From Dipteronia dyeriana (taxonomy: Eukaryota; Streptophyta; Magnoliopsida; Sapindales; Sapindaceae): a stretch of 64,000 bases of DNA. A model generated the notes under the pieces. That model saw nothing but the letters and a program-made list of their open reading frames with translations, did not search any database and had not been told where the DNA came from. A program made the translations under genes and the position numbers. Location of the stretch: the NCBI GenBank assembly GCA_032871835.1, contig CM065296.1, forward strand, positions 10,550,001 through 10,614,000, written 5' to 3'. This document shows positions 14,834 to 60,119 of this stretch, piece by piece. Each line of letters begins with the position of its first letter. Within the stretch, counting starts at the first letter, position 1.

Positions 14834-17304
14834 TCATAACCTCAGATGAATGGCCGCATCCATAAGGATAGTCGCTGCCTCCATTCTGCTCCATTCAACC
14901 TCCAACTCTATTCTAGAGGGTTCATCAAAGCAGTCTCTGGTTCCCTCATGGGCTTCTAGTCGAACAACTTCAGGCTGCACGAGCCGAACCCCACTTGAGG
15001 ATTCCCCGGGACCCAAGACTGAAAGGATAGAAAAAGAAAAAGGAGGAAGATCTGTCTTAACCGGAAGTTTCCAGGCTCCAACCATGCTTGAAGGGCCCGC
15101 TCCAACCATGCTAGAAGGGCCCGCTCCATCACCATTAAGATGAGACTTCTCTGTAACCTTAGCCATGATCTCTTCTCTATCCCAATTGGAAATTTTGGAT
15201 AGATCGAAGGAAAATGGGAGAGCTTCAACGACGTGGAAGAAGGCATAAAAATACCCATCACTGAAGGAGGCATCCACCTCGGATTGCAACATGGCTACCT
15301 GAGCATGCAAGGTCTGGTTCTTGATGTCTAACATCTTAGGCTCAGCTTTCCAAGTGTCTCTTTGCTTAGCTCGGCATTCAGAGTGAAGGGTTTCTTGATT
15401 AAAGGAACATTTTAACCTCTCATAGTTGTAGTGAATCTCGGTTAGCTCCACTTCAATCCCCCTATGGCTAGATGTCATCTCCTACATTAAAGCTTGAGCT
15501 CGAGCCAACAACCTCATGGCCCTCTCAGCTTCAGCCTCAGCTTTAGCTACACGATCGTGAAGAGAGGTCATCTGATGACCCATGCCCACGTTGAATTTGA
15601 AAGCATACAGGTTGAAAAAAGTTCAAGTTAGAAAATGATCAAGCTAGCCGTCACTAGAAAAAATGAAGGATGATGGTTACCTCGACCAAAAAGGTAAGTC
15701 TTTTGGTGATCAAGATGTCTACGAGCATTAAAGCCATCAGGAAAAAACTGCCACCTGGGCATGATGCAACAAATTGCCCCAAGCCCTTATCAAGCATGGC
15801 AAAGCTCGGTTGATGTTGTGGACCAACGAGAGGAACCTCCTCAACACCAGCCTCGGGGTCCTACAAAGATCGAGGAATCAAGGATACGGATGAAGGGGAA
15901 GAAACATCTAGCAAGTTAACCATAGGGGCGATAGAAATAGCTACAACAACAGTGGAGGCAACTAAAGAAGGAGCAATAGTAGTTGCATCAGCAGCCTGAG
16001 AAACAGAGGTTCCTTTGGTCCGTACCTTGGTAGCCCGCGATACGAGAAGCACCATATTGGACCTAAACTGGGAAGGGGACGAAGTAGGAATGGGCAAAAC
16101 CCCAGCTGGAACAGTTGGCTCCCCTTTCTCTAAGGTAGCCAAAGAGACTCCGTGGGTCAACCTGGCAGGAGGAGGAGGGATGTGAGCTTGCTGGGTTTCA
16201 CGGGAAACTGGAGCGACAACAAAAACTATTAAAAAAAAAGAGGAGAAAGGTGTCAGAATCAAACTAGCCATTGAAACAGAGCAGGATAGCTCAACATTAC
16301 TTTACTTATGAGGAGTAGCAGTAGAGATAAACATGTATTGATTTAACCTACGAGGATCGAAGGGATCAGCAGTAGGAAACTTCAATTTCAAATAATTTAT
16401 ATGGAGGATGGCCTTCAAGATTGCTTTAGATTCAGCGGGTAAAGAATCCCAATCCCACGATGGTTTGTCATCGAAAGTTATGGGGACCTCGAGCTCGTTT
16501 TCGCAAATGAAGATCGAGCTGCCTCAATCATCCCCCACCAGAATCTATTCCTCCTTCCATGCGAGTTCTTTCTTTGAAGTGTCAGGAATGATAAAGTTGA
16601 GCATATTCTTAGCTTTCACATAGAACTAACCTCGGGGGGCACCAGATTGGCTTTCAATCTAAAAGAGGTAAGCCAACTCCTCTACACCGGGCTCCTTGGT
16701 AAATTTGCTCAGCTGGCACTGTTCCCTCCACAGCATAAGGAAGACAATTAGATGTCTCCAGAAGCCAGGCGTCAACTGGAGAGGAGCTAACTGTAGAGCA
16801 TTAAGAGCTCGTCGGAGGGTAGGATGAAAGAGAAGCCTGACCCTATTCTCGAGAGCCCTTACATGAATTGGAAGCATGCCTTTAGAAGGATTGAAGAGGT
16901 TACAATTTTTGGGAGGAACTAAGATGGACATGTTGCCAGTGATGCAATACTTGGACCTTAGGCAATCAATCGAATTCAGATCAGTGGTAGAATTTAGGAT
17001 GACCCTGAAATCGTAAGGAGGAAGCCTCTCTAGAGAAGGATTGGCAACTGTAACTTGGCCCTTCCCAACATCAGCATCTTTAGGTTCCCTATCAGAATCT
17101 CTGTCGACCAAGTTAAGTGGGCCATCAGGTCTGTTAGAGAACCCGGTCCCAACAGCTACGTTCTTGCTTGGCCGATGACGTTGCTGGTTTGAAGGAGGAT
17201 CGTCGTTTTTGAAATCTCATTGCGCCCATTTACCATGGGCAAGAATGAAGACTTCATCGCCATCTGCTAAGGGAGTCTCTAGTGTCACGGCTAATTTTCG
17301 ACAT
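14834..17304 (-). pseudogene. E1 antisense gene (Transposase_28-like), decayed
   Basis: The gene faces away from gag-pol. From the ATGTCGA start (17304) the exons are 16310-17304, 15681-16225 and 14834-15604. The first holds a domain like the plant 'putative gypsy type transposon' family, with a LPPYDF segment followed by HPTLRRALNALQLAPLQLTPG-like sequence (17111-16659). The third has a coiled-coil-like part (MLDIKNQTLHAQVAMLQSEV) and the conserved NWDREEIMAK motif. A frameshift follows the start and a stop replaces a Gln codon at about 16658. Both introns have a broken site: the first donor reads AT instead of GT (16309-16308), and the second acceptor AT instead of AG (15606-15605). A 24-bp in-frame duplication (GAGPSSMV twice) is private to this copy. 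Function is unknown. Confidence 0.7.
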
Positions 17305-17443
17305 GGTAGAGGGAATCTTCTAGTCAGAAGAAAGAAAAGATAGAGGTGTTGCTCGAAAAGGTAACGAGAGGTAGTTTTCTTCTTTTTTGAAAATTTAAAA
17401 ATTGAAAGAAAGAAAGTGTGAGGAAGACGGTGAGGCAACCGGG

Positions 17444-17451
17444 TTTAAATA
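17444..17451 (-). promoter_or_regulatory. TATA box of the E1 antisense gene
   Basis: The minus strand reads TATTTAAA about 140 bp before the ATGTCGA start. The same octamer precedes the antisense genes of E2 (20133-20140) and E5 (57443-57450). A TGACGTGGC motif lies upstream on the same strand (17556-17564), comparable to TGACGTGTC in E2 (20014-20022). Confidence 0.6.
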
Positions 17452-17697
17452 TAGGTAAATTCAATTATACGAAAGCAAATTTTTCGGTAGAGATTGCCTC
17501 GAATCTTATGGCGTAACATAGCCGGATTGTTTTGAGAACGTGTCATTCTCTACTCGCCACGTCACCCCGTACATTTAATGAGAGGATTTCCACCCAAATT
17601 ATTGTAGTGACAATGGAGGAAAAAATTTCCCAATTAAAACGGGAAGTCTGACTCCAACCCCAACTCAATCACAGGTGTTCAAGTCATATGGGACTTC

Positions 17698-18757
17698 TGT
17701 TAATAGCCAAATTTGGCTAGGAACCCAAGGAAAATTTTCCACCATCCTAACCCGGGTCCAAGTCCGAGATCACCTACCATGGTACCACGGTTCCTGGGGA
17801 CAAGCTGTTGGGCCACCCCGTAGAAGCGAGGAAAGGTCATCACGCTCTAGGATCGCCCTAAAAGGAGCCTAACACGATCAGATCAAGTTTCGTACACCGA
17901 AGCAAGACCCTAGGGTAAGCCCGATACATGATGATCCAGACTCCCCGAAGTCGAAATTACCTCACATCATCCCTAGAAGCCCGCCATCCTCTCCAGACGT
18001 AAAGAGGGACCCATAAGGACATTAAGTTTGTACTGCAGTATCACTCCATTTCGCAGAGGGAAGATTCGAATCTATCTGGACATGTAAGAGGAAGCTCGCT
18101 GAAGCTCCGTTACCACCGAAGAGCGCCACAGGTCAATCTCTAGATCCAGGGGACCTGGAAAGGTTAGACCAAGCTCCTGGCACCAAGTCAGAGCATAAGT
18201 ATATCTCGTTATTTAAGTAACTCCATGAGGCATCTTACCATGAAGGAACACAAGATCATATCTACACTCCAACAAACATTAAATCACCGTGTACTTGCAG
18301 GGCAAGTGATTGAGTCCAAAAAGGAAACAAACTTATCTCTACCCAAGATACTCTATAATTTGTTATTATTCAGAGTCAATGACGTTTAAAATAAAGGATC
18401 CTGCCCAATAAGAGGGGATTGGATTCGAAGAATAATGGTGGGAGAACCATGAGTTTAACCTAATTGGATTGTGTATAAATAGGCCCGATCATGCACAGGA
18501 AAAGAAGAGGCAGAGATAAAGGAGAGTGTTTGATTTTGCCTAAATTTATGATCAGAACATGACCACCATAGCTATCTACTTCTTGACAGGCACGAAGCTG
18601 GCACCCTACTGTACCCTAGAGAGGTTGATAGTATTTGAGTGATTTTTGTATACACCATATGATTCATCAATTAAGCAATTCAAATTCCCTTTGCTTGTCG
18701 TATTTGCACTTAGCCTGGTATTCACCTTCACACTTATCATCATACGAATAAACTAGG
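17698..18757 (+). repeat. E1 3' LTR, left part
   Basis: The repeat starts TGTTAATAGCC after a GGGACTTC polypurine-like stretch. It matches 6579-7660 of the 5' LTR and stops at CTAGG (18753-18757), where E2 is inserted. The missing end lies at 48338-48429. Confidence 0.85.
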
Positions 18758-19881
18758 TGTTAACGAGAAATTTGTTCAAGGTGAGAAATTCCAACTAACA
18801 CCCTTGAGGCCACTATCACGGAGGTGGTGGCCAATGACGGTACTTTTGATACCTGACCTGCTTAGATAGAAATGAATGTTTGAATGACAATATCAAATGA
18901 GAGCTTTATTATTGATCACTCGTGGTATACAAAAATCTTTCACATACACTCACAATCTCTCTAGGACATCAGAAGGTGGCAACTTCGTGCTTGTCAAATA
19001 GTAGATACAATGATGGTCGTGTTCTGATCACAGAATTTAGGCTCGACATAATTCTCTTTCTTTATCACTCTATTTTTTCCTATTAAAACTCATTGACTTC
19101 GAGTAACCTTCGGACTCAAGATTGTCGTTGGAGGAGATATGTTTGTTTCCTCTTTAAAATCAAACTCTCGTCTTACACGTATACAGCATTTAATTTTCGT
19201 TATAGCGTAGACATGATCTTGCGTGTATTCGTGGCATGATTCTCCGTGGAAGTCATTAGCTATTTTGTAAAGCAAGGCAGATCCATGCTTTAGTTTTGAT
19301 TTTAGAAACTTGGGATGGCCTTGCAGGAACTTACAGGAGGCAGTGTAGTCTAGGCAAGATTCTTCTCTTATGCCTAAATAGGTTACAGGCGTCCCTCTTT
19401 GAATCTAAACATCAACGAATCTGATCCTTTTAGAGGCTCTCTCTGTGTATTTGACAGGGACAACGGGCTTCTAGAGAGGTAGATGGGCTTCTAGCTTAGG
19501 CTACAAGTTAAATCTAACCTTGGGAGGCCCTGGTCTGGAAGGAGCTCTTTCTTGTTTATGTCGAGCTTCGTTTCGATTGCTTCTTGAGCTTAGAGATCCT
19601 TTCTAGCTTTCACGGGGTAGTCTTGGAGCCTGACCGTAGGAATTGAGATTTCGAGATAGGTGATCTTGAGAAGCCCGGGTTCCAATGTTCGCATAAGGGC
19701 CCGACCTGATCGTGCCTATCTTTATCCCTGCTAACTCTGAAGCCCGATCATCCTTCCCTGCTTTTACGGGGTAGCTTTCTGGTTCGCCTGGGGTCCCATG
19801 AATGGTGAATTCGGGCTTTGATTTGATCTAGGACTGTGGAAAATTTCTCTTTGATCCCTTAGCAAAATTTTACTATTAACA
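18758..19881 (-). repeat. E2 3' LTR
   Basis: The 1124-bp repeat has TGTTAAC at its left and TTAACA at its right edge. It matches 47096-48332 but lacks about 115 bp that hold the TATA box there (a gap near 19087). To the right a GAAGTCCCCTCTGAC stretch is the minus-strand polypurine tract (AGAGGGGACTTC). Confidence 0.85.
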
Positions 19882-20013: not shown

Positions 20014-20140
20014 TGACGTGTCAAGCTTGAATTTGTGTGCTCCTTGAAGAAAACCTGGATATATACAGCCCTCTTCGTGGTTCGAGGTAATCTTCCCAAG
20101 GATATCCCCGTCGTCACTGCAACCCTAACCTCTATTTAAA
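20014..20140 (+). promoter_or_regulatory. Promoter region of the E2 antisense gene
   Basis: TGACGTGTC (20014-20022) carries an ACGT core of the bZIP-binding type. TATTTAAA (20133-20140) lies about 145 bp before ATGTCGA (20284). Both have counterparts at similar places in E1, and the TATTTAAA box also in E5. Sequence conservation in copies whose ORFs have decayed separately supports a true promoter. Confidence 0.6.
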
Positions 20141-21504
20141 TTCAAACTCACTGCCACTTCCTCATGCATTCTTTCACTTTTAAATTTTCAAACTTGCTCT
20201 CTCTTCCTATCTTTTTCGGCTGCATCATTGTTTTTCATCCACCTTTAAGCTTTTTTCCTCCATCTTCAAGCCCTATTCAATCAATGTCGAACTTTTTCAG
20301 ACAGCATTGACGCCATGGTCGAGGGCACTGATGGCCCCGATTTCGTTTCTCAAACATGGGTGAGAGGAATTTTGAGCGATGAGAATTCTTCCCCGGTTCG
20401 TCAGCGTCGTCGCTCTAGTATGAATGTCTCAATCGGCTCTGGATTCTCGAATAAGCCCGACAACCCTCTGAACTTGGTTGATAATGATTCTGACGTAGGA
20501 GTGAGAGACGGTGTCGCTAGGAGGGGTGAAGTCATGGTAGACGGTCTTCTTTCGACAGAGCTTCCGCCTTACGACTTTATGGTCATTCCCAATTCCAATG
20601 TTGATCCTAATTCTCTCAATCGTATAAGGTCCAAGTATGGTATTCCTGACAGCGTTTCTCTCACCATCTCTTACAAAGACTACGACATTTTTAACCCTTC
20701 AAAAGATGTCCTTCCAAATCACATGGTGGCCCTCGAGAGTGGGGTCAGGCTTCCCCTCCATCCTACCCTGCGGCTAGCTCTCAATGCCCTTCAACTAGCT
20801 CCTCTCCAGTTGATGCCCGGCTTCTAAAGGTATCTAATCGTCTTCCTCGTGCTGCGGAGGGAGCAGTGCGAGCTTAGTAAGATAACCAGGGAGCTCAGAG
20901 CAGAGGAGCTAGCTTTCCTCTTCCAAATTGGGAGCTTGGCAGAGGTTCCCCGAGGTCAATTCTATGACAAAGCCAAGAACAAGCTTAATTTCATCATCCC
21001 TAGAGTTTCAAGGAAGGACCTGGCTTGGAAAGAGGAGTGGATTTTAGCTGGTGATGATTGGGGGAGCTCGATCTTTATAGGTGGGCATGAGTTTACGGTC
21101 CTCATGACTTTCAACAACAAACCATCATGGGATCAGGACTCCTTGCCCTCCGAATCCGAAACGGTGTTGAGGACCATCCTCGCCAGGAACTACCTGAATC
21201 TGAAGTATCCAATGGCTGATCTCTACGATACTTGCAGGGTGAACCAATATATGTGGATCTCTGATGGTACCCCTCGTAAGTAATATTAAGTTATTGTGCT
21301 TCATTCTGTTAGCTGGCTGGCTTCTGATATTCTTCCTTTTTTCTTTTTCTTTCACTTTTTTGACAGTTTTTTTTGTTACTCTAGCCTCCTGTGAAGTTCG
21401 GCAAGCTCAAACCCCTCTCCCTCCTGCTAGATCATCATGGGGAGTCTTCTCGGTTACCTTAGAGAAAGAGGGGCCATCCATTCCAGCTGTTGTTTAGCCT
21501 GCTC

Positions 21505-21566
21505 CATCTCCATCTCCATCTCCATCTCCATCTCCATCTCCATCTCTATCTCCATCTCCATCTCCT
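21505..21566 (+). repeat. (CCATCT)n hexamer repeat
   Basis: About ten CCATCT units with few changes lie in exon 2 of the E2 antisense gene. As a multiple of three it codes for alternating Ser-Pro and keeps the frame. Confidence 0.9.
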
Positions 21567-21824
21567 ACATAAGCTAGGTCTAGGATGGCTATTCTTGCAT
21601 CACAGGCTACCAAGGCGCTAATCAAATGAGGCCCTGCTTCCAGGCTGCTAAACTAACCATCTCTACCTCTTCACCAGATACCTCTACTATTGCTGTTGCT
21701 TCCTCAATTTCCTTACTAGAGGCCTTACCCCCTCCATCTAAGCTTCCAACTCTTCAGGCTTCGACGGGCTCGGAGGCTGGTGTCTTTGAAGCTCCACCTG
21801 CTTACCCCAAACGCCAACCGAACT

Positions 21825-21825
<1 letters not shown>

Positions 21826-21877
<52 letters not shown>
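21826..21877 (+). repeat. 52-base G homopolymer
   Basis: An unbroken run of 52 Gs follows CCGAACTC inside exon 2 of the E2 antisense gene. E1 and E5 have no such run at this point. It could be true expansion, a G-quadruplex-forming tract, or a sequencing or assembly artefact. Confidence 0.9.
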
Positions 21878-21878
<1 letters not shown>

Positions 21879-22986
21879 AAGATGAGTTACTAAAGCAGTT
21901 CGTTGCCTCTTGCCCGGGTGGTGGTCTCTCTAGGATGGCTTCGATGCCCGTTGAGGTCCTAGTTACCAAAGGGTCTGCGCTCCTGGCTGAGGTGGCTATT
22001 TTCCCCTATACTTTTCTGTGATTGCGAGCTTTGATTGCTCTCTAACCTTCATCTCATACTTTACAGGCTTTCAAGTTTAATGTAGCGATGGGTCACCAGG
22101 TATCCTCTCTCCATGGTCGGGCTGGTCAAACTGAAGCTGAAACTGAAACTTAAAATGTCATAGGGCTTTTCGCTAAAGCTCGGTCTCTAATGGAAGAGAT
22201 GACCTCAAACAAAAGAAGATGGAGGCTGAACTGAGCGAGCTTCATTGTGATCATGAGAGGATGAAGTGATCCTTTGACCAGGAAATCCTCAAGTCAGATC
22301 AACGGGTTAGGTAGAGAGACTTCTGGAAGGTTGAAGCCAAGAAGCTGGATACCGAGAATGAAGATATGCATGCCCAGATTGCCAAGCTCCAAGTCGAGGT
22401 GGATACGTCCTTCAGCGAAGAATACTTATATGCTTCCTACCAGGTCGCTGAAGCCCTCCCCTCTCCCTTTGACCTATCGGTTATTGCCAACTGGGATAGG
22501 GAAGAGATATTGGCCAAGGCCATAGAGATGTCTCGTCTTTTAGGTGATGAATCGGGTCCCCCAAATATGGATGAAGCTGGGAAGCAGCCAGCTGCGTTAG
22601 ACATTCCTCCCCCTCCTCTTGTCCTTTGAACGCCAGGTCCCAGAGAATCCACTAGAGGGGTTCAACCCGTGGAAGCTGAAAGAGGCCTTCCAGGAGCCTG
22701 AGACCCCTCTAGGCTGGCTTCAAGGGAAGAGCCAACGGTGGGATAGAGCTTGCGGGAGTTAATGGCCGACCTTCTAGATGCGGCCATCCCACCTGAGGTC
22801 ATATAGGTGGTTAACGAGGTCTTAGAGGAAGATCCTGTTGAGCAGCAAGCAATCGAGGAGCATCCTCAGAAAGAGGTGGTAGAGGTGGCTAACCAGGATG
22901 AGCGACCACCAGAAAGAGGAGCAGGGGGCAAGGTTCATCCTAAGGGAGGGGAAGATGAAGGAAATTTAAAGGATGCAGAAGTCTGA

Positions 22987-23513
22987 ATCCATCTTCTTGT
23001 AGCTTGTTTCGAATGCCCGGAAATGGGGGTGGGCATCCTATCTTTACTCATGCTTGGTCACCACCATTACCCCTTTTTTTTACTAGTACTTTATAGCCCG
23101 AAACCAGGGTTTGGGCTTCCTGTTTGATTGTTGTATCCTTACCAGGGGATAGGCTCCCCATTTCATAAATGAAAATTAACTTTAGATCTAGTTCAAATTT
23201 TGATTGGCATGTACTTACTTCATTTTTTATCTCAATCTAGGTACAGCCTCTACAGCAATCTAGCTCTAAGTTAGGTGAAAGTAACGAGATAGGAAAACTG
23301 TTTAAGTGTAAAAGTAGACAGCTAGCTCGAGCTTTCGACTCTCAACAGAAACTTGTAGCTCATGACTTTAGTAAATAGTCCCCTTGTGTGATTGTAGGCT
23401 AGTCTGCACCTGTCACAGTAAGCAACTACATATACACAGAGAATTAGCGACTAGTAATAACTGGGTCATTTAAAGTAAAAGAGCTTTCCATTCTCGAACC
23501 CCTCTAGGGGGTC
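22987..23513 (+). other. E2 3' region of the antisense gene
   Basis: There is no further ORF. The segment GGGTGGGCATCC (23024) and the 'ttgggcttcctg' and 'gataggctcccc' stretches recur after the E5 gene (60146-60262). This shared non-coding tail, with ATAAATGAAAA near 23166, is probably the 3' UTR. Confidence 0.5.
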
Positions 23514-23880
23514 ATAGCCCGAGTGAGGCATCAATGTGGGCTATCTAGCCATCTCTTAGCCTTGAGATCTAGGAGCTAACTATGCTCTTACACTCAGACC
23601 CTTCTTGGGGGTGGTAGTCTGACCAAGGCATCAGGAGGGCTATCTAGCTATTTCCTGGCCTTGAGATCTGGATGGCAACTATGCTCTTACACTCAGACCC
23701 TTATTAGGGGTGGTAGCCCGACCAAGGCATCAGGAGGGCTATCTAGCTATTTTATGGTCTCGAGATCTGGATGGCAACTAAGCTTTTACACTCGGACCCT
23801 TCTTGGCGGGGGTAGTGTCCGGCTGTGGCATTAGAGATAGCGGCGAGGGGGCTTCCCCGGCTAATCCCTTGTCTTAGGAT
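23514..23880 (+). repeat. E2 tandem repeats, 99-bp unit
   Basis: The marker GTAGYCYGACCAAGGCATCA (or its variant) lies at about 23514, 23614, 23713 and 23812, giving spacings of 100, 99 and 99 bp. Each unit includes GATCTGGATGGCAACTATGC. On the minus strand, the coding strand of E2, this array follows integrase. Confidence 0.85.
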
Positions 23881-24019
23881 GGTAATGTTGAATTTTCCCA
23901 TGTAGAACCAAATCATTGTAGAACATAGTTGAAGATGAAGAAAACATGCTTTATTGAAAAGAAAAAAGAATTGAGTACATTATCATTGCTTATTAAAAAC
24001 TAGGTGGAGGTAGCCTGCT

Positions 24020-24989: not shown

Positions 24990-25800
24990 GAGGACTCATT
25001 ATGGTAAGGTCTGGCCACCATTCGCAGCTATCTTGGCTAGGATTTCTGCTCGATGATTCTATTGTCGAGGTACCTGCTCAATCTTAAAACCTTTGAATTT
25101 ACTCTTAAGCTGTTGAACTAGCTTCAGGTAAGCAATCATGTTATCCCCTTTTGCCTGATAATCCCCAGAGACTTGGTTGACTATGAGCAACGAGTCATTC
25201 CTGACCTGTAGGTAATCTACCCCGAGCTCTGTGGCCGCCCTTATTCCGGCTAAGAGAGCTTCATACTCTGCCTCATTGTTAGTGGCTTTAAATTCAAACC
25301 TGAAACAGTGGCAGCACTCAGTCCCTTCTAGGTCGATTAGAACTATGCCCGTTCCTCCCCTGGCTTGCCCGGATGATCCATCTGTGTAGAGAATCCACGA
25401 CTTTCAATGTTCGTCACTGCGAAGGTCGCTTGGCCTGGAGGCATTGAGAGCTCTGCTAAAAGTCCGCCAAAGCTTAGGCTTTTATTGCGGTCCTGGGCTT
25501 ATACCTTAAATCAAACTGGGTGAGCTCCAAAGCCTATAAAACCAACCTTCCGGATACATTCGGCCTTTCTAAGCATTGACGAAGGGGTAGGTCTGTCACT
25601 ACTGCTATTGAATGAGCTTGAAAGTAGGGACAGAGCTTCCTTACCGAGGTCACCCAGGCATAAACGAGCTTCTCCAGAAAGGTATAGTTCTTCTCGGGCT
25701 TGGTTAGAGCATGACTCACTTAGTAGATAGGCCGCTGAACCCTATCTCTGCATTCCTTGACTAAGGCCCCACTTACTGCAGTCTCTGATACGACAAAGTA
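24990..25800 (-). pseudogene. E2 RNase H and second RNase H domains
   Basis: On the minus strand the first RNase H shows YFQAHSIAVVTDLPLRQ (25719-25534). The second (about 25390-25040) shows the start of an RNase H fold (DGSSGQARGGTGIVLIDLE), then FEFKATNNEAEYEALLAGIR and NDSLLIVNQVSGDYQAKGD. The second domain is in better condition than in E1. Its motif order is that of the archaeal-type RNase H described in Tat elements. Confidence 0.75.
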
Positions 25801-25803
25801 GAT

Positions 25804-26934
25804 TTACAGCTCTTCTCCAAGACTTGGTTTGACCAGTAGCGGAAGGCTTGACAGATATTTTTTCAAGGCTTGAAAAGCTTGTTCACTCTCCTGGTCATAT
25901 TTCATGTTTCTTCCCTGTTTGTTGGCTTTGAAGAATGGGAGAAATTTGTCAGTAAATCGAGAAATAAACTTGTTAAGGACTGCTACCTGTCCGGTCAGGA
26001 CTTGAACCTGTCTAAGTGACATGGGGGACTTTAGTCCCAGGATAGCCTTAATCTTTTTGGGGTTAGCCTCTATGCCTCTCATGAACCATGAAACCCATAA
26101 ACTTTCCCGTAGTCACCCCAAAAGCGTATTTTGAAGGGTTCAATCTCATCTGGTTCTCCCTTAAGATCAAGAAGGTTCTGTGAAGGTTGTCCAGATGGCC
26201 TTCAAAGGTTGATGACTTGGTGATCATGTCATCGATGTACACCTCTATTGATCTTCCAATTTCGGGCTTGAACAATTGATTGACTAATAGTTGATAAGTA
26301 GCTCTTGTGTTCTTAAGCCTGAAAGGCATCATCTTGTAGCAATACAGACCCCTTCCAGTGATGAAACTGGTCTTTTCCTGGTCGGTGGGGTGCATCATGA
26401 TTTGATTGTATCCTAAAAGCGCGTCCATGAAGCTCAGGATCTTATTTCCAGAGGTAGAGTCAACTAACTGATGAATTTTTGGTAGAGGGAAACTGTCTTT
26501 CGGGCATGCCCGATTGAGGGAGGTATAATCGATGCACATGTGCCCTTTCCTATTTGTCTTTGTGACCATAACTACGTTGGCGATCCATTCAGGGTAGCGT
26601 GCTTCTTTGATGAAGCCTGCTTGGTTCAATTTGTCCATTTTTCCTTAATCACAAAATTTCTTTCGATGTTGAAGTGATGCCTTTTTTGTTTGATGGGCTT
26701 GAAGGTCGGATCCACTGCCAATCAGTGAGCAGCCTAAGTCATCGGGATCCCAGGCATCTCGTCGTGACTACAAGTGAAGATGTCATTGAATTCTTTAAGG
26801 AGCCCCCAAACTCTCATTCACTCCCGACTCAAGGGTGGCTCCAACCTTGACAACCTTTGATGGATCGTTTATTAGGAGGGACACTTCTTCTAGCTCATTG
26901 TATGACACCACAAGATCATCCTCTGGGTGATTCA
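25804..26934 (-). pseudogene. E2 reverse transcriptase
   Basis: The open stretch 26638-26063 on the minus strand contains ICIDYTSLNRA-like sequence (here MCIDYTSLN), FMDALLGYNQIMM (catalytic Asp), MPFRLKNTRATYQ, in which two conserved Gly are changed to Arg, and YIDDM. A frameshift near 26070 moves the thumb and connection to 26082-25804 (RGIEANPKKIKAI, then SEQAFQALKKYL). The linker before RT (26640-26934) is decayed and ends at the E3 insertion. The protease that should precede it is absent. Confidence 0.85.
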
Positions 26935-44140: not shown

Positions 44141-45652
44141 TCACCAAATATCCCGCCCTTCATCCATACGAGGGACTTTCCTTGTATGGTTTTTCCTGGA
44201 ATTATTGGTGGTGCCAATTAGAGTAGGCCCTCCGCTGATGGTATGTATTATCTGGATTTGCTCCATCAGATCCACCTGCTCCCCCCATCTTTTCTCCTCG
44301 TGTTCACGGATCTCGGCTTGCACTTCCCTTCCAGTCTGAATGTTATCCCTGACTTACTGTAAGAATTCTACCACAAATCCTCCTTTTATCAAAGCCTCAA
44401 TCTAATTTCACGGGTTATAGCACTCTGAAGTGTTGTGTCCCACATCTTCGTGAAAGTCACAATTCTTATAAAGATTCCTCCTGTCGATGGGGGCTTTCAT
44501 AGGTACGGGCTTCTGTAGTAACCCTTTATCCCTAATGGTGAGATAAATTGTTTCACAAGATACATTTAAAGGGGTGTAATTATCAAATTCTCTCTCATCT
44601 CGAGCTATTGGAGCCATCTTCCTAGGAGTAGGCGAAACCCGCGGAGGAGTTCGTTTTACGGGATACCTTTCCGACCTAGGTTAAGAAATAGAGAGGCGAT
44701 ACGTTGACCTGTTGGGGGTTTGTTCTAGCTATTCTGAGCTTGTTCTGGTTTGGAAGCTTCCTTCTTCTGTCTCTTTACGGTTCTCATATCGTCGTGTTCC
44801 ATCTTGACCTTGATCTGTTCGTCGACTTCAATTTGCTCCAGATCTCGATCATAGGCTTCTTGGTAGGTCTCAAGAGTCCTCTTGGCGAAAGACCAGAATA
44901 GCTTGCCTGCCCACAAGTTCCTCCTAAAATTGGTGAGGGTTTCTTTCTCGGTGAAGACCCTCATTTGGATGACTTCCTTATAGAAACGCTCAACATAAGC
45001 CCAAAGGGTTTCCTCTTTCTCTTTGACCATGTATTGTAGATGGATTGGATCCTTCAATGGGGGCTTAACTCCCTGGAATTGCAAGCAGAAATCAGTTGAC
45101 AGTTTCATGAAGGAATCCACACTGCCAGCGGGTAGCTTTCTTAATCAGGTCTTAGCGTAATCCGTCAGCGTAGTTAGGAGCATTCAACACATAGTGACCT
45201 TGGTCGTGTTCTGGACCTCCATATGTTGAATAAAGCTCTCCAAGTGGCTCAAGGGATCCTCAGTCTCGGAGAATCTATCAGTCGCCATTTTGCATTTTGG
45301 TAAGAGATCCGCCTCCTGGATCTTTCTGGTGAAAAGAGCATTCATCTCACTTATAAGGTCTTTCTTGTCTTTTTTATACTTCCCCTTCTTCTTCCACTAG
45401 AACTCTTTCTAAAGCTCTGCCAACTGGTCTCTCAAGCGCTTGCTCTCATGTTTCCTTGAATTAATCTCGGACTCCTCACTGTCAGACCCTTCTGACGAGC
45501 TGACGACCTCTACCCAATTCCTTCTTCGAATGGGATCTACATGGGGGGCTTTATTGGCTTTCTTGGCTTTCTTCCTCTCTAGCTCGGATTTTCCTCCTTA
45601 AAGTCACTGGGTAAAGAAATTTTCATCTCTCCCGGGGAAGTTCATCAGCTGA
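44141..45652 (-). pseudogene. E2 gag, 5' end cut
   Basis: The minus strand shows the same gag order as E1. The core (45120-44725: FMKLSTDFCLQFQGVKPP, VERFYKEVIQMRVFTEKE, NLWAGKL) is intact for 131 codons. The knuckle region (44617-44408) has CDFHEDVGHNTSECYN. The C-terminus (44323-44141) ends VPRMDEGRDI, where E3 begins. The N-terminal stretch (45652-45130) has stops. At 45652/45653 it meets the duplicated E1 3' end, so the true leader and primer site are missing. Confidence 0.75.
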
Positions 45653-47095
45653 AAGAAAAGATAGAGGTGTTGCTTGAGAAGGTAACGAGAGGAAGTTTTC
45701 TTCTCTTTGAAAAATTTAAAACTGAAAGAAAGAAATCGTGAGGAAGACGGTGAGGTAGCATGGTTTAAATATAGGTGAATTCAGTGATGCGAAAGTAAAA
45801 AATTTGGCAGAGATTGCCTCGAATCTCGTGGCGTAACGTAGACAGATTGTTTTGAGAACGTGCCATTCTCTGCTCTCCATGTCACCGGTACATTTAATGA
45901 GAGGATTTCCACCCAGATTATGGTATCGACAATGGAGGAAAAAATTTCCCAATTAAAATGGGAAGTCTGACTCCAACCCTAACTCAATCACCGATAATCA
46001 AGTCAGAGGGGACTTCTTTTAATAGCCAAATTTGGCTAGGGACCAAAGGAAAATTTTCCACTCTCCTAACCCGGGTCCAAGTCCAAGATCACTTATCATG
46101 GTACCACGGTTCCTGAGGTCAAGCTGTTGGGCCATCCCGCAGAAGCAAAGAAAGGTCGTCACACCCTAGGAACGCCCAAAGTGAAGCCTCACATGATCAG
46201 ATCGAGTTCCTTACACCTAAGCAAGAACCCAGGGTAAGCCCGATATATGATGATCCAGACTCTCTGAGGTCGAAATTACCTCACAACCTCCCCAGAAGCC
46301 CGCCATCCTCTCCAGACGTAAAGAGTGACCCATAAGGACATTAAGTTCGTACTGCAGTATCACTCCACTTCACCGAGGGAAGATTTGAATATATCTGGAC
46401 AGGTAACAGGAAGCTCGTTGAAGCTCCGTTATCACCGAAGAGTGCCACAGGTCTATCTCTAGATCCAGGGGACCTGGAAAGGTTAGACCAAGCTCCTAGC
46501 ACCAAGACCAGAGCATAAGTATAGCTCGCTCTTTGAGTAAACAAACATCATAAACAATGACCTCCATGAGGCATCTTACCGTGAAGGCACACAGGATCAT
46601 ATCTACACTCTAACAAACATTAAATCACTGTGTATGTGCAGGGCAAGTGATTGAGTCCAAAAAGGAAACAAACTTATCTCCATCCAGGATACTCTCGAAT
46701 CCGTTATTTTTTTAAAGTCAACAACGTTTAAAATAAAGGATCCTGCCCAATAAGGGGGGATTAGATTCAGAGAATAAAGAAAACCATGAGTTTAACCTAA
46801 TTGGACTGTGTATAAATAGGCCCGATCATGCACAGGAAAAGGAGAGGCAAAGATAAAGGATAGTGTTTTGATTTTGCCTAAATTTTATGATCAGAACACG
46901 GCCACCATTGCTATCGACTTCTCGACAGGCACGAAGCTGGCACCCCACTATACCCTAGAAAGATTGAGAGTATTTGAGTGATTTTGTATACGCCATATGA
47001 TTCACCAATAAAGCAATTCAAATTCCCTTTGCTTGTCGTATTTGCACTTAGCCTGGTATTCACCTTCACACTTATCATCATACGAATAAACTAGG
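45653..47095 (+). repeat. Second copy of the E1 3' end, inside E2
   Basis: The stretch matches 17326-18757 in the same orientation, from GAAAGAAAAGATAGAGG through the antisense-gene promoter (TTTAAATA at 45764-45771) and the E1 LTR (from 46017, TG changed to TT) to CTAGG (47091-47095). It stops at exactly the base where E2 enters E1 at 18757. It shares 3'-LTR-specific bases (for example GGTTCCTG and AAGCTGTTGGGCCA) that differ from the E1 5' LTR. It occupies the place of the E2 leader and primer site. Confidence 0.85.
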
Positions 47096-48332
47096 TGTTA
47101 ACGGTAAATTTGCTCAAGGTGAGAAATTCCAACTAACACCTTCGAGTCCACTACCACGGAGGTAGTGGCCTTGGTCAGTGCCTTTGATACCTGACCTGCT
47201 TAGATAGAAACGAATGTTTGAATGACAATAGCAAATGAGAGCTTTATTATTGATCACTCGTGGTATATTGAAATCTCTCACACACATTCACAATCTATCT
47301 AGGACATAGGAAGGTGGCAACTTCGTGCTTGTCGAATAGTAGATACAATGATGGTCGTGCTCTGATCACTGAATTTAGGCCCGACGTAATTCTCTTTCTT
47401 TTTCACTCTATTTCTGCCTATCTTCTTCATATCATGCTTCACCTATTTATATATGCTCCAAGTAGTTTAAACTCGTGAATCGCCCGCCATGATTTTATGA
47501 ATCCGTTCCCTCCTTATCTGGCATAATCCTCTATTTAAAAATCGTTGACTTCGAGTAAACTTCGGACTCAAGATTATCATTGGAGGAGATAAGTTTGTTT
47601 CCTCTTTGGAATCAAACTCTCGTATTACACATATACAACATTTAATGTCCGTTATAGCGTAGACATGATCTTGTGTGTATTCATGGCATGATTCTTCATG
47701 GAGGTCATTAGTTGTTTTGTAAAACAAGGCAGATCCATGCTTTAGTTCTGATTTTAGAAGCTTGGGATGGCCTTGCGGGCACTTACGGGAGGCAGTGTAG
47801 TCTAGGTGAGATTCTTCTCTTATGCCTAGATAGGTTACAAGTGTCCCTCAATGAATCTGAACATTAGCGAATCTAATCCTCTTAGAGGATCTCTCTCCGT
47901 ATTTGACAGGGACAGCTGGCTTCTGGAGAGGTAGGTTGGCTTCTGGCTTAGGCTGCGAGTTAAATCTGACCTGGGAGGCCCTGGTCTTGAATGAGCTCTT
48001 TCTTGTTTGTGTCAGGCTTCGCTTCGAGTGCTTCTTGAGCTCGGTGATCCTTCCTCGCTTTCACGGGGTAGTCTTGGAGCTCGACTCTAGGAACCGAGAT
48101 TCCGGGATAGGTGATTTTGAGAAGCCTAAGTTCCAATGTTCACGCGAGGGCTGGACCTGGTCGTGCCTAGCTTTATCCCTGCTAACTCTGAAGCCCAATC
48201 ATCCTTCCCTGCTTCTGCGGGGTAGCTTTCTGATTAACCCGGGGTCCCATGAATGGTGAATTCTGGCTTTGATTTGAGCTAGGAGAGTAGAAAATTTCTC
48301 TTTGACCCCCTAGCAAAATTTTACTTTTAACA
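47096..48332 (-). repeat. E2 5' LTR
   Basis: The 1237-bp repeat has TGTTAACGG at its left and TTAACA at its right edge. A minus-strand TATA box (TATATAAATA, 47443-47452) lies in a stretch that the 3' LTR has lost. The right edge is followed by the CTAGG target duplication and then the rest of the E1 LTR. Confidence 0.85.
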
Positions 48333-53111: not shown

Positions 53112-53174
<63 letters not shown>

Positions 53175-53263: not shown

Positions 53264-55728
53264 TGTTAGGTTTTAGTTTGTGTTGGCATTAATTCCATAT
53301 CAAAATGATGTTTACTTATAATGATTTAGTTGTTTAGATTCATGATGATTCAAGCTTCAAAGAAGAAGGAACAACTAGTCAAAACAAGTTCAAAGTCTTC
53401 AAAGAGAAAGGATGCAATATGGTTCTACAAAGGTATACTAAGACCTTATTTTTCTCTTACAAGGCTTAGGCACACACACAATTCATACATTTGTGTCCCT
53501 GCATCGTTGTGCACCATTATAGGCACACACATACAATTCATTCATATGTGTCCCTACATCGTTGTGCACCATGTATAACACATTCACACACTTGAAGATG
53601 AATGCTCATGCATTGGTATGGAAATAACATGTTTTGGAATATGCATGATTGGAGACTATCTCTATGTAGTTTGCATTCTAGTGTGAATTGTGTTTGTATA
53701 TGTATATGTTTGTATAACATAGATATTGAACTTGAATTTAGTCTTAAATCATTCTTGATTGAGTTCCGGTCATTTCGGTTACTCATACTATTGATTTCAA
53801 GTTCTAAGTCAAAAGATACTACATTTTCAACTCATGTTGCATACATTGTCTTTGTATTCATATATCGAGTCAAATTTTTATTTTATGGGTTGAGTATCTT
53901 ATATTTCTATGTCCATGAGAGAGTTACATTTTGTAATCCGTAAACAGATTCGAATTCCGAGTTTGAAGGTCGGAGAACAGTCGTAGAACGAGAGGAAAAG
54001 AAGTGCAACCAAGCACTCTTTCCCGAGATGGCGCGTGGCCATCTCGGGACAGAATGCTTGCTGCCCCGAGATGCCCATGCGCCATCTCAGGCAGCAACCA
54101 TGATTGGTGCACTTAAAGGAATTTTGTTCCTTCTTGCTTCATTCTTCCCCCTCCTCTATATTTCCCTTCCCTCTCACATTTCATTAAAAGAAGAAATTTA
54201 AAAATTGAGTGCAGAAATTTTCTCTCTACATTTTCTCACCTTCCAAACACCATAACTTCTTCATTTAAACTCCGATTTGAGTGATTCAAAGTTGAGAGTG
54301 TTTTTCTATTCATCCTTCATCTTTTCTATGGAGGTTTAAGTGAGTTTTATTGCTGTTTTTAACATCTAAACTCACAAAAACGGGACTGCACCAAAATCAA
54401 CTAAGGTATTGATTTTCTCTCAAAGTTTTCTTTTAAAACTTAGTCAATTGCCCTGGGTTTTCTTCTTCAACATATATATGTGTATTATAAGTGTTTTGAT
54501 TTGAGTTTTGAACTCATTTAAAGCTAGGTTGAGTTTCAATTGAAATCTCACATGTTGAGTCAGGTTTTGATTTTGCCTATGTTTTCACATGTTTGGGATT
54601 GTATTGTGATAGCTTTGATTCTAGGACTATTTGATGATCTTTGATTGATTGATTTTGTGAAAAATAGTTCCTCACATGTATTAGGCTATCTTGGCCGAAT
54701 TCTCACAATGATACATGTGCTTATATTCTTTTGAACTATTCATGTGTTTTGTTGAATCTATGAATAGGAATATGCTCTAGAACTTTAGCTTTCATCTAAA
54801 TGACTTTGTCATATGATTTTAGCATGTTTTGATTTATGAGATTTAAACTTGATTATGTGATTAATTGAACATATCTTGTGATTCAAGTTTTAGATCTATG
54901 CATGTATCTAGGTTGTAATTAATGTTGAACATATCTTACATGATCTAGATGGATTAAACATGCATGATTGACTAGACTACATTTGTTTTGTGCATTCATG
55001 CTCATGTCTAGTATTTTCCATAGGATGTGTTGATCATAACATTCTATGTTGCGTGCTTGTTTGTGTTTTGCATTCATGAACACCTAGATGCCTTGTGAGA
55101 AGGAAGTCTTGACAATAGGTGTGAGACCTATGTTGTTGAGCAAGAAAGTCTTGGCAAGAGGTGTGAAACCTTGGATTGTCAAGCAAGGAAGTCTTGACTA
55201 GAGTCGAGAGGACTCGGATAGTCGAGCAAGAAGTCTTGCCTAGGGTCGTGAGGATCTGGAAGAGTGAACGAGGAAGTCTTGACTAGAGTCGGGAGGACTC
55301 GGAGAGTTGAGCAAGAAGTCTTGCCTAGGGTCGTGAGGATCCAGAAGGGTGAGCGAGGAAGTCTTGACAAGAGGTGTGAGGCCTCGGATTGTTGAGCAAG
55401 AGGGCGACATCTTCATGAGTAGGATAGGAGGGTATAGGTGAAGGGGTCACTTGAGAGATTGTACTTGTCTTATCTACTAGTGGATTTTGTTTGCCAGTGG
55501 TGGCTAACCCGTGGATGTTTCTTCTTCGGAGGTTTACCACGTTATATCTTGTGTCAATTTTTCTATATCCCTATCTCTCTTATATTTTTACTTGTTATTT
55601 GAAAACTATGGATAGAACTCTTTATGTTAGTTGACTTCCTTTCTATAATATAGATTGTGTATGTGTTACCATTACTTATTTTTATCACACTTTACTTGTT
55701 TTATATATTGATTTAGTGTCTTTAATTG

Positions 55729-55781
<53 letters not shown>

Positions 55782-55901
55782 GATACAAGCAATCTAGAAG
55801 GACAAACTTTTATTTGTTTCTAAGGGAGTCGGAAAAGGTGTCTAACCTATTAACCCCCCATCTAGGTTAGCCTTGAGCATTTAACCGTGTTTGTATTTTC
55901 A
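53264..55901 (+). mobile_element. Solo LTR of the E3 family
   Basis: The 2638-bp repeat starts TGTTAGGTTTTAG and ends GTATTTTCA. AAATC flanks it (53259-53263 and 55902-55906). Its whole length matches the E3 3' LTR in opposite orientation. The site matches the uninterrupted sequence at 51060-51115. No internal region remains, so it probably arose by recombination between two LTRs. It contains tandem units of about 42-48 bp (55105-55410), an (AT)n tract (55733-55779) and a private 59-bp duplication (53468-53580). Confidence 0.9.
55105..55410 (+). repeat. Tandem repeats inside the solo LTR
   Basis: About seven units of about 42-48 bp share GAAGTCTTGACTAGAGTCG or GAAGTCTTGCCTAGGGTCG and GAGCAAG. 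The reverse complement occurs in the E3 LTR (27395-27710). Confidence 0.8.
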
Positions 55902-55973
55902 AAATCACAACAGCATGACAATCCTCATGTTTATCATATAATAGTTTGACTGTTTGAGACCAATTTTTCTATT

Positions 55974-56124
55974 GTATCACGTATTTGTGAGCATACTTAT
56001 AGCACATTTATTAACTTTATCAATTTTTGTTATGTAAGCGTTATTTAACCTAATTACATTATTTTTATGACAAAAATTGATGAAGTGGATAAATGTGATA
56101 TAAGTATGCTCACAGTTATGTATC
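55974..56124. mobile_element. Foldback MITE-like element
   Basis: The left arm (from GTATCACGTATTTGTGAGCA) and the right arm (ending in TGCTCACAGTTATGTATC) are inverted repeats of about 60 bp around a loop of about 30 bp. GTGAGCATACTTATA and CAATTTTTGT are shared by both arms. No coding sequence or clear target duplication is seen. Confidence 0.65.
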
Positions 56125-56311
56125 TACCAGAAAAAAACTCTATTTGAGACACATTCAATATATATATATATATAGAGAGAGAGAGATATATAGAAAATTT
56201 GCACATAAGTGCGCATAGATGAAATTATATAATGATATTGAATGTAAGCCACTCAGTTTACATACTTTGACTTGACATGTATACACATTCTTAAAACTCT
56301 TTTATAAATTA

Positions 56312-56838
56312 GGCCCAGTTTGGCATTGCTTCCCTAGCTGCTTTTGGGGTCAAAAGTGATTCTGGACCTAAGACATGGTGTTTGGTAAAATCGTTGGGAA
56401 GTGCTTTTGGTCACTTTTAGCTTCTCCCAACTGAGTTTTTGAGAAGCTACAAATACATGCTTTTGGATTTTGGCTTCTTCTTTTAGAAAACGCGCTACAG
56501 TGATATTAAATAAAATTGTACTAACTTTCCAACTTTGTCCTTACCTTTAATGAAATTTAACAAAAATAATTGGACTTATATTTTTGTACAAAAAAAATGT
56601 TGCCATAACTGTATAAAAAATTTGGGATAATTAATTCAATAAAGTAGAATAAAAATGAAATTAAAAAATAAAGTATAATAAAATAAAGAAATAAAGAAAT
56701 AAAGAAATTGGACCAATTAATTAAATAAAGTAGAATAAAAAATGGGGCTAATTAATTCAATAAAGTACCATAATTATATAACACTTAACACTAAACACAA
56801 ATAAACAAGAAAAATGTAAAGTATAGCACATTAGTACT
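56312..56838. mobile_element. Truncated element of the 38434-39221 family
   Basis: The start GGCCCAGTTTGGCATTGCTTC and the next 150 bp match the right end of the element at 38434-39221 in reverse orientation, including GTGTTTGGTAAAAT and GAAGTGCTTTTGGTC. The other end is missing. The sequence turns AT-rich and meets the cut LTR of E5 at about 56839. Confidence 0.65.
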
Positions 56839-57214
56839 ATTTAGGTGTGATTCCTCTTTTATGCCCAGCAGGGACAGCGGGCTTCTGGAGATGTTGGTGG
56901 GCTTCTCTCGAATGTCTCTTGAGCTTGGAGACTTCTCCTGGCATTCACGAGATGGTTAAGGAGCTTGACCTCAAAGTCGGGGTTCCCCGATAGGTGGCCT
57001 GGAGAAGCCCGAGCTCCAGTATTCGTGTAGGAGGTCATCTTGGTCGCACCTAGCTTGTTTTCTGTTAGTTGTGAAGCTGAGCCGGCCTTCCCTACTCTTG
57101 CGGGGTGGCTTTATGGTCTATCCAGGCTTTCATGATTGTTTATTATGGGTTTCGACTTGTGGCGGGAAAGTAAAAAATTTCTCTTTCACCCGTGGCCAAA
57201 TTTCACTGTTAACA
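56839..57214 (-). repeat. E5 3' LTR, partial
   Basis: It matches 62989-63365 (TTAGGYGTGATTC to TTTCACTRTTAA). The right edge reads TTAACA and is followed by AAAGTCCACTCTGAC, the counterpart of the E2 sequence after its 3' LTR. The left part is cut at the truncated MITE. Confidence 0.8.
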
Positions 57215-57442
57215 AAAGTCCACTCTGACTTGAACACCGGTGGTAGAGTTGGAGTCGGAGTCAGATTCCTTGTTTAATTGATAAAGTTTTCCGTTATAAA
57301 AATAATTAATGAGAGCGAAATCTTCTCATTAATTACCCAGTATTTGAATTTGAAACAGTGTTTTATTCGAAGAAAGACGGCTGCAATACGGCTCCAAGTG
57401 ATCTTCCAGAGGATATCACCTACATCATTATCCTTAATCCTC

Positions 57443-57450
57443 TATTTAAA
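57443..57450 (+). promoter_or_regulatory. TATA box of the E5 antisense gene
   Basis: TATTTAAA, 125 bp before ATGTCGA (57575), is identical to the octamers before the E1 and E2 antisense genes. Confidence 0.6.
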
Positions 57451-57574
57451 CCAGGCTTTACCATCACTTTCTTCATACTTTCTCAAATCTCAAATTTTTA
57501 GATTTCTTCTTTCCTGCTTTCTCTACCGATTTCCCTCTATCTTCCGCTTGCTTTCAAGTCCTTCTTACCCATTA

Positions 57575-60119
57575 ATGTCGACTTCCTCTGACAGTATTGA
57601 CGCCTTTATTGAGGGTATCAGAGGCCTTAACCTAGTTCCTCATAAACGGGTGTGAGGAATTTCGAGTGATAAGGAATCTTCCCCGGTCCGCCAGCCCGAC
57701 AACCCTCTAAACCTAGTTGATGAGGATTCTGATGTCGGGGAGAGAGTCGACGTGGTCAGGGAAGGTTCAGGTCACAGTGGCGGAGCTTCCTTCAGTGGTG
57801 ACCCTTCCTTTCAAACCCAAGGTCATCATTGATTCCATCGTTGACCCTCAGTCGATTAGCCTTCTTTGGGACAAATACGGTACTCCTGACACCGTTTCCC
57901 TCACTATCCCCCATAGGAATTATAATGTTTTTAGTCCACCCAAAGACGTACTTCCTATCCACGTCGCAGCTTTTGAGAGCGGGGTGAGGCTCCTTCTTCA
58001 CCCTACCCTTCAGCGAGCTCTTAATGCCTTTCAGCTGGCTCTGCTCCAATTGACACCAGACTTCTGGAGGCATCTAGTCGGCTTCCTTGTGTTATGGAGG
58101 GAGCAATGCGAGATGAGCAATGTAACTAGGGAGCCTGGGGCTGAGGAACTCACCTTTCTTTTCCAGATAGGTAGCCTGGCTAGGGTTCCTCGAGGCCAAG
58201 AACAAGTTTAATTTTATCTTCCCTAGGGCTTCAAAGAAAGACCCCGCTCGGAAAGAGGAGTGGGTACTGGCAGGGGGAGACTGGGGGAGCTATATTTTCA
58301 TCGGCGGATATGAGCTCGAGGTTCCCACCACTTTTAGTGATAAACCCTCATGGGATCGGGATTCCCTGCCCGCTGAGTCTGAAGCCGTGCTGAAGACCAT
58401 TCTGACTCGAAATTACTTAAATTTAAAGTTTTCAACTGTTGACCCCTTTGATCCCCGTAGGGTGAACAAGTACCTGCGGATCTCTAACGCTACTCCTCGT
58501 AAGTATCTCGCTCTATACTGTTTTTAAGTTGTTTGACGGTTCAGTTCTGATGACCTTGACCCCCCTTTTTTATTTTTAACAGTGTTTGTTGTTGCTCCAG
58601 CTTCTCGCTAAGCCCGGTAAGAAAAGACCCCTCTTCCTCCTTCTAGATCATCCCCGAGAGCTCTCTCTGTCACTTCGAAGAAGAGGGTGTCAACCATTAA
58701 GGTTGCTACCTTGCTTACTAATGCTCCAAAGCCTTCTTAGGTGAAGTCTAAGATGGATATCCTTGCGTCTCTGGCGGTAAAGGCTTTAAACCGAGGAGGG
58801 CCCACTTCCCAAGCCGCTGATAAGTCCATTATTGCCCCCTTACCAGTAGTTTCTGCTTCAAACGATGCTTCCCAGTCACATTATCCCTTTCTGCTGATTC
58901 GGCTATATCCCCGGCAGTTCAGGTTCCCAGGGAGCCCGAAGCCAATACTCCTGAGGTCGCCCCTTCTCGCCCTCACCATCAATCTAGCTCGGAGGGTCAA
59001 AACGAGGTTCTGAAGAAAATCGTTGCATTCTGTCCAGGAGGCTAGCTGTCTAGAATGACCTCGATGCCCGTGGATATCATGATTAGTAAAGGGTTTGCCC
59101 TTCTAGCTGAGGTAATTGTCGCTTTTACTTCTTCATTCAGCAGCTTGATTTATCATTTTCTAACATGAATTTCCTTTGCAGGCCTTCAAGTTTCAGGTAG
59201 CCATGGGATATCAGGTCGCCTTTCTCTATGATTGGGCAGCCAAGGATGAGGATGAGGCTGAGGCTGATCGAGTGATGGGGTTGCTTGCACGGGTTCAAAC
59301 CTTGGTCCGGAAGATGACCTCCAACCAACAGGGAATGGAAACGTAGCTTGCTGAGCTCCAGTGCGACCATGAGAGGTTGAAACGCGCTTTTGATCAGAAA
59401 ACTCTCTGGTCGAACCGACGAGCTATCCAGCGGGATGACTAGAAGGGAGAGGCGAAAGCTCTGGATGTCAAGAACCAAGCTTTACAGGTTCAAATTACCC
59501 AGCTCCAGGCCGAAGTGGAAGCCTCTTTTAAGGAGGGGTACATCTATGGCTCATATCAGGTTGCAGTAGCCCTTCCTCCCCCATTTGATCTTTCTAGCAT
59601 CACCAGCTGGGATAGAGAAGAGGTTATGTCACGGGCTGTAGAGATGTCTCACCCCAAAAATGATGGAGCTGGTTCTTCTGGGGAGGGAGCTAGGAAGCGG
59701 CTGAAAGTGCCAGATCTACCTTCTCCAGTTCCAACCTTCCCAGCATCTGGTCCTAGCGAATCCTCGAGGGGGGTCCAAACTGAGGAGCTAGAAGGAGGCC
59801 TTGCTGAAGGCCGAGATTCCCCTACAAAGCTCTTAGGAGTGGAGTCAACCGAATGTGGGATTATGCCTGAGTTAGTGGCCAGCCTTCTTGATGCAGCCAT
59901 ACCGCCTGAAGTTATGGTGGTGATGAAATCGTGGAGGAGGATCCTGTTGACCCCGATGCAGCCTAGGTGAATCCCTAGGAGGAGGTGGCGGAGGCGGTAG
60001 ATGCAGCTGACTAGGATGAGCTACGATCGGAGAGGGGAGCAAGGGGCGAGGTTAACTCTGTAGAAGAAGAGGCGGGAGGTCCTCAGAAAGACGAAGAATT
60101 TGAGTTCTCTCCCATGTAA
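57575..60119 (+). pseudogene. E5 antisense gene (Transposase_28-like), three exons
   Basis: Exons are 57575-58498, 58584-59111 and 59182-60119. This copy keeps the start context best (MSTSSDSIDAF). It stops at a TGA near 57653, where E2 has an Arg codon. The Transposase_28-like domain (57717-58211) shows LHPTLQRALNAFQLALLQLTP and FWRHLVGFLVLWREQ. Intron 1 has GTAAGT and TTAACAG, and intron 2 GTAATT and TTTGCAG, so both look able to splice. Exon 2 carries stops soon after the splice point (FVVAPASR then a stop). Exon 3 holds a predicted coiled coil with VQITQLQAEVEASF and the conserved SWDREEVMSRA motif. The end is set at the TAA at 60117. Confidence 0.7.

Follow-up and report, generated by a model that had tools for sequence, protein, structure and literature searches.

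A stretch of 64,000 nucleotides of Dipteronia dyeriana DNA (assembly GCA_032871835.1, contig CM065296.1, positions 10,550,001 to 10,614,000; the whole stretch is hereafter called the window, and its first letter is position 1) was analyzed and found to be plant DNA crowded with decayed retrotransposons. Three of these, E1, E2 and E5, very probably hold the remains of one three-exon antisense gene with its own promoter, a level of confidence that refers to the anatomy of the gene and excludes its function. An initial annotation had placed such a gene opposite gag-pol, between the post-pol repeats and the 3' long terminal repeat (LTR), in all three elements. Reading and aligning the three loci confirmed this observation as a whole, and the accompanying interpretation of an antisense spliced gene is supported by the sequence comparisons. 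The gag, reverse transcriptase (RT), RNase H (RH), RVT_3 and integrase-zinc pieces of E1 lie on the plus strand and its antisense gene on the minus strand; the RT, RH and RVT_3 pieces of E2 lie on the minus strand and its antisense gene on the plus strand. Coordinates are collected in Table 1.

The three-way alignment of E1, E2 and E5 spans the near-LTR region to beyond the stop codon. The shared ATGTCGA start was found at 17304(-), 20284(+) and 57575(+). The gene end originally given for E1, 14834, proved to be a premature stop, and the aligned end lies near 14680 (22986 in E2 and about 60103 in E5). Exon 1 had been called Transposase_28-like in every copy; this stood for E5, with 30.7 bits against a cut-off of 26.2, but E1, with 20.6 bits, fell below the cut-off. 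Within exon 2 of E2, positions 21826-21877 form an unbroken run of 52 G, a product of slippage or an assembly artefact.

Two introns of about 70-90 nt had been proposed at matching positions, and two were found in each copy. Features expected of a spliced gene, namely GT..AG ends, a branch-point motif and a frame that continues across the join, are present, with the exception that E1 is without one end of each intron: both introns have GT..AG in E2 and E5, and in E1 intron 1 lacks its GT and intron 2 its AG. As foreseen, E2 reads LFFVTLASCEV after the join, and the matching peptide past the same junction reads LFVVAPVSRETQ in E1 and LFVVAPASR, followed by a stop, in E5. From position 17216, exons 1-3 of E1 join as one 740-codon frame with six stops. 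The T content of the introns is 0.43-0.52, compared with 0.23-0.27 in E2 exons 1 and 3. A branch-point-like motif, CTRAY, is present exactly once in each intron of each copy. These motifs are aligned across all three copies, with the A 18-39 nt before the 3' end; an aligned CTRAY so placed arose in 2 of 20000 column shuffles for intron 1 and 51 of 20000 for intron 2. Both introns of E1, E2 and E5 contain an in-frame stop, so an unspliced message would terminate within intron 1. Taken at the level of sequence, the intron stops, the aligned branch-point-like motifs and the border seen in homologues (below) fit splicing.

Equal substitution rates in exons and introns had been named beforehand as the result that would count against the gene. 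When this comparison was run on the three copies the rates were unequal, and the gene model passed. Pooled introns differed at 63/153, 68/149 and 76/154 sites (0.41, 0.46 and 0.49) in the three pairs. Codon positions 1 and 2 together differed at 0.29, 0.32 and 0.28 (Fisher P against introns 2.1e-3, 9.3e-4 and 8.1e-8), and codon position 3 at 0.45, 0.54 and 0.49 (P 0.47, 0.09 and 0.93). The introns diverge like position 3 and faster than positions 1 and 2. The ratio of nonsynonymous to synonymous divergence (dN/dS) among the three copies was 0.13-0.22 for exon 1, 0.36-0.45 for exon 2 and 0.19-0.30 for exon 3, and position 3 was the most variable in 9/9 exon-by-pair comparisons (chi-square P 0.037 to 3.8e-16). 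These results show that exons 1, 2 and 3 are under protein-level constraint.

As a control, a dN/dS-type ratio was compared over all six frames for each exon and pair. Exon 1 had its lowest ratio in the antisense frame in 3/3 pairs, as did exon 3 in the two pairs with E1 as the frame reference; the runner-up was the sense-strand frame that has the same third positions, and it contained more stops. Applied to the introns, the same control gave ratios scattered from 0.20 to 1.68 and was uninformative. For exon 1, dN was 0.22-0.31 across pairs and 0.30 for E1-E2, above the 0.19-0.21 of the RT, RH and second RNase H (aRH) pieces in that pair. Over the pol control as a whole, dN was 0.18-0.21 in four of five pieces, in three of which dS was saturated and not computable; the fifth piece aligned poorly (50% identity) and gave a ratio of 0.59.

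A search with the E2 exon 1 protein returned seven matches among 1994 candidates. Five (P0001-P0005), from ENA/JGI contigs, were 40-46% identical to E2 exon 1 and matched PF04195, the Transposase_28 family, with P0004 below the cut-off; two E2 ORF (open reading frame) pieces searched against Pfam gave no Transposase_28 match at E<=0.01. The other two (P0006 and P0007) are D. dyeriana gene models, 73 and 77% identical across roughly one quarter of the query. P0001-P0004 extend to the end of exon 1; P0005 stops short of it, and P0006 and P0007 do not include it. Pooled over the six pairs of P0001-P0004, 512/594 residues were identical before the border (80-91 of 99 in each pair) and 25/69 after it, where the individual pairs, with gaps, gave 5/15, 6/15, 5/8, 5/15, 1/8 and 3/8. 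Similarity is lost past the border, so this distant family marks the same exon end. The proteins P0001-P0004 have G[KE][LF] at the border, which is what translation of GGTRAGT would give. The E1 spliced read-through protein had no match at E<=0.001 among 7989 candidates scored, and of the stretches of DNA around relatives of P0002 (viral_contigs, 3; genome_contigs, 22) none was confirmed. The sequence comparisons as a group support the coding frame, protein-level selection, the exon borders and the introns.

The upstream box TATTTAAA, read here as a TATA box, had been placed 125-150 bp before the ATG, and the distances measured (Table 1) bear this out. It lies 248 (E1), 252 (E2), 230 (E5) and 249 (E4) bp inside the edge of the 3' LTR, E4 being a fourth copy of the promoter region. 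The box is the longest three-way identical run across 325 upstream columns, 77 of which are identical; an identical run of at least 8 occurred in 39 of 20000 shuffles of these columns. Downstream of it by 31-33 bases, a CA in a TTCYTCA-like context was seen by eye in E1, E2 and E5, and would suit a candidate start site. Candidate AATAAA-like motifs, likewise picked out by eye, follow the stop at a distance of about 160-180 nt; they read ATTAAA in E1, CATAAA/AATGAA in E2 and AATAAA in E5.

By domain order and sizes the three elements, all decayed, are of the Tat/Retand type of Ty3/gypsy. In Pfam comparisons the order in E1 was RT, RH, RVT_3 (19.9 bits against a cut-off of 21.6) and an integrase zinc domain, and in E2 RT, RH and RVT_3 (60.6 bits); the integrase pieces of E2 that were compared had no Pfam match. 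A second RNase H between RH and integrase (INT), the mark of the Ogre/Retand type of the Tat clade, is present, and aRH was placed at that position in Ogre and Retand by Neumann et al. (PMC6317226). Published Retand elements have LTRs of 315-1194 bp and internal regions of 7380-12869 bp (PMC11963269). The LTRs of E1 (about 1.08 kb) and its internal region (about 10.0 kb) fall inside this range, a comparison made for E1 only as E2 and E5 are incomplete. A Transposase_28 match lies antisense between pol and the 3' LTR, as in the TRP28 ORFs of Retand.

Extra antisense ORFs in Tat elements, which the initial annotation took as known, are published: counting short ORFs as well, TRP28 is encoded in antisense by 61 of the 63 Retand clusters analyzed, and among 104 antisense ORFs 72 have known domains, 11 of them SMC (PMC11963269). 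The Retand TRP28 (PF04195) ORFs resemble the gene described here in orientation, position between pol and the 3' LTR, Transposase_28 content, nearby tandem repeats, and LTR and internal sizes. They differ in that they were published as single ORFs (ORF Finder), whereas here two conserved introns link TRP28 to a coiled-coil part. In the text of PMC11963269 'intron' and 'TATA' are absent, and 'splic' and 'exon' occur in the references only. Maize Grande gene23, likened here by its description, is also antisense, lies between pol and the 3' LTR, is reported to have its own promoter upstream and to encode a nuclear protein (PMC7264820); that review mentions no intron for gene23, and calls for a search for spliced antisense transcripts. 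HBZ of HTLV-1 is likewise a retroelement gene that is antisense, spliced and located at the 3' end, but it starts inside the 3' LTR, and the likeness is one of working only, with no sequence kinship claimed (PMC1459196). The gag-pol intron of Ogre offers a further case of a Tat-clade element using splicing (PMC6317226). A literature search, outside which key subscription papers fell, did not find the two-intron gene model. What may be undescribed in this known feature of the family is its pair of conserved introns.

Several points weigh against the reading of a spliced three-exon gene. Stops and frameshifts make pseudogenes of all three copies; in E1 and E2 the remainder of exon 1 is in a different frame from the ATG, and two splice sites have been lost in E1. 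From DNA comparison of three dead copies we infer transcription, splicing and the start site, and the start site and poly(A) signals were assessed by eye. With dS at 0.87-1.9, synonymous sites are close to saturation. The proposed exon 2 frame led by only a small margin in two pairs of the six-frame control, and in the E2-E5 pair it scored 0.67 against a lowest value of 0.48; for exon 3 of that pair a different forward frame was lowest. Both departures arise in E2-E5 because the E2 frameshifts disturb the frame. Of the 15 occurrences of TATTTAAA in the window, four belong to these promoters; the motif by itself is weak, so its weight rests on position and conservation. One of the six homologue pairs retains 5/8 residues past the border, and no full-length relative was found, a longer query giving one match (P0003) among 4348 candidates.

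ORFs are counted one by one in published surveys (104 in antisense across 63 clusters, PMC11963269), and this, together with the weak exon 2 frame signal, would agree with a gene consisting only of an unspliced Transposase_28 ORF that ends just past exon 1, the coiled-coil ORF being a separate antisense gene or nothing. We consider this improbable, given that E1 holds exons 1-3 in one spliced frame with matching phases, that exons 2 and 3 are also constrained as protein, and that the introns bear aligned splice-type signals. An antisense transcript would overlap about 3 kb of sense RNA, and a role for such antisense ORFs mainly as RNA, feeding double-stranded RNA and siRNA against the sense RNA with the protein secondary, has been suggested (PMC7264820). 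Protein-level constraint and an intron/exon rate difference are unexpected for a pure RNA function, which makes this explanation very unlikely here; the two functions could coexist, and an RNA role may accompany the protein role.

It is more improbable still that a host gene or another transposon became nested by chance and is not the element's own gene. A DNA insertion would bring introns and a promoter with it, and may be the ultimate origin of the gene, but all four copies have the promoter at 230-252 bp within the 3' LTR, the ORF occurs in 61/63 recently active clusters analyzed (PMC11963269), and exon 1 dN (0.22-0.31) is not far above that of the RT, RH and aRH pieces.

Under the preferred reading of a spliced gene belonging to the element, each element would carry what is left of one protein-coding gene on the strand opposite gag-pol. 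Two short introns would interrupt this gene, and its own TATA promoter would sit about 230-250 bp within the 3' LTR. The spliced product would have about 800 residues, comprising a Transposase_28 region (exon 1), a linker (exon 2), Pro/Ser/Ala/Thr-rich by eye, and, from exon 3, a coiled-coil-like part that also has an acidic tail. The best 42-residue windows at the start of exon 3 in E1 and E5 had heptad periodicity above 300/300 shuffles, a result that is indicative only as many windows were tried. AlphaFold models were uninformative, with mean pLDDT of 34.5 for the TRP28 part and 37.0 for the exon 3 part. We propose tentatively, with somewhat more doubt than confidence, that the protein works in the nucleus as an accessory factor and acts in trans on expression, cDNA or integration of the element itself; such a protein would be made from a transcript of its own that does not depend on the LTR promoter. 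The reported nuclear location of maize Grande GENE23 (PMC7264820) and the predicted DNA binding of TRP28 (PMC11963269) favor this role.

The introns are readable as introns only on the antisense strand, so the sense genomic RNA would keep them and retrotransposition would not erase them. Retrotransposition reporters carry an intron in the sense orientation of the element, which is thus removed (PMC12786077), and the antisense introns here are their mirror image. A retrotransposon may lose a sense-strand intron whenever its spliced RNA is copied; a conserved intron on the opposite strand escapes, and a conserved intron-bearing gene on that strand implies a separate transcript. A broader proposal, which we regard as evenly balanced between true and false, is that the antisense TRP28 and SMC-like/coiled-coil ORFs of angiosperm Retand elements together make up the exons of a single ancient spliced gene that has a core promoter of its own. 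Under this proposal the introns of that gene, unremoved from sense genomic RNA, were carried through retrotransposition, and the gene entered the lineage as DNA and not as processed mRNA. If the gene model holds generally, the TRP28 and SMC-like ORFs published so far would belong together as parts of a single protein. A correct gene model would alter the counting and naming of antisense ORFs in an abundant plant element lineage, and would supply a full-length protein for functional tests.

Table 1. Positions in the window of the antisense gene copies and of their host elements.
Feature	Position	Strand	Remarks
E1 TATTTAAA box	17444..17451	-	147 bp before ATG
E1 exon 1	16310..17304	-	Transposase_28-like; frameshift near start, stops
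E1 intron 1	16226..16309	-	84 nt, phase 1, donor GT lost
E1 exon 2	15681..16225	-	one in-frame stop
E1 intron 2	15605..15680	-	76 nt, phase 0, acceptor AG lost
E1 exon 3	14680..15604	-	premature stops; aligned gene end ~14680
E2 TATTTAAA box	20133..20140	+	151 bp before ATG
E2 exon 1	20284..21275	+	ATG out of frame, one stop
E2 intron 1	21276..21366	+	91 nt, GT..AG, phase 1
E2 exon 2	21367..21991	+	frameshifts, stops, simple repeats, poly-G run
E2 intron 2	21992..22066	+	75 nt, GT..AG, phase 0
E2 exon 3	22067..22986	+	to stop, frameshifted
E5 TATTTAAA box	57443..57450	+	132 bp before ATG
E5 exon 1	57575..58498	+	Transposase_28 above Pfam cut-off; frameshifts, stops
E5 intron 1	58499..58582	+	84 nt, GT..AG, phase 1
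E5 exon 2	58583..59111	+	frameshifts, stops
E5 intron 2	59112..59181	+	70 nt, GT..AG, phase 0
E5 exon 3	59182..60103	+	coiled-coil-like start
E4 TATTTAAA box	45771	-	fourth promoter copy
E4 promoter and 5' untranslated region	45645..46019	-	fourth copy; remainder of gene missing
E1 5' LTR	6579..7661	+	84.9% identical to 17698-18758
E1 gag, RT, RH, RVT_3 (aRH), integrase zinc-binding pieces	8667..12718	+	RVT_3 below cut-off
E1 3' LTR	17698..18758	+	pairs with 6579..7661
E2 99-bp tandem repeats	23410..23904	.	between pol and antisense gene
E2 RT, RH, RVT_3 (aRH) pieces	25059..26644	-	
E5 LTR pieces	56839-57217 and 62990-63368		
E5 99-bp tandem repeats	60694..61584	.	
E5 pol remnant	61157-62722		matches E1 in reverse

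A segment of about 2.6 kb (17324-19881) that contains the E1 antisense promoter, the 3' LTR of E1 and a second, reversed LTR recurs at 45645-48332 with about 88% identity. At 44157-45771 the E4 antisense promoter remnant faces, in the same direction, a decayed gag-like stretch that matches E1 8319-9665 at 68%, reversed; this arrangement is probably a rearrangement or a second element. A 2-kb repeat is present in two copies of opposite orientation (26927-28927 and 53916-55908, 87% identical), the first of which sits at the E2 break. A purine stretch adjoins the 3' LTR on the gag-pol strand at 17640-17698 and at the matching places in E2, E4 and E5, and includes a candidate polypurine tract that is AGAGGGG-like in E2, E4 and E5 and altered in E1. 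Elsewhere in the window, a 269-aa ORF at 40814-41623 (-) has a strong match to Transposase_32 (PF20167, E 7e-23), another plant transposon-associated domain, and 5641-6056 is a foldback or MITE-like repeat, about 75% identical to itself in reverse complement.

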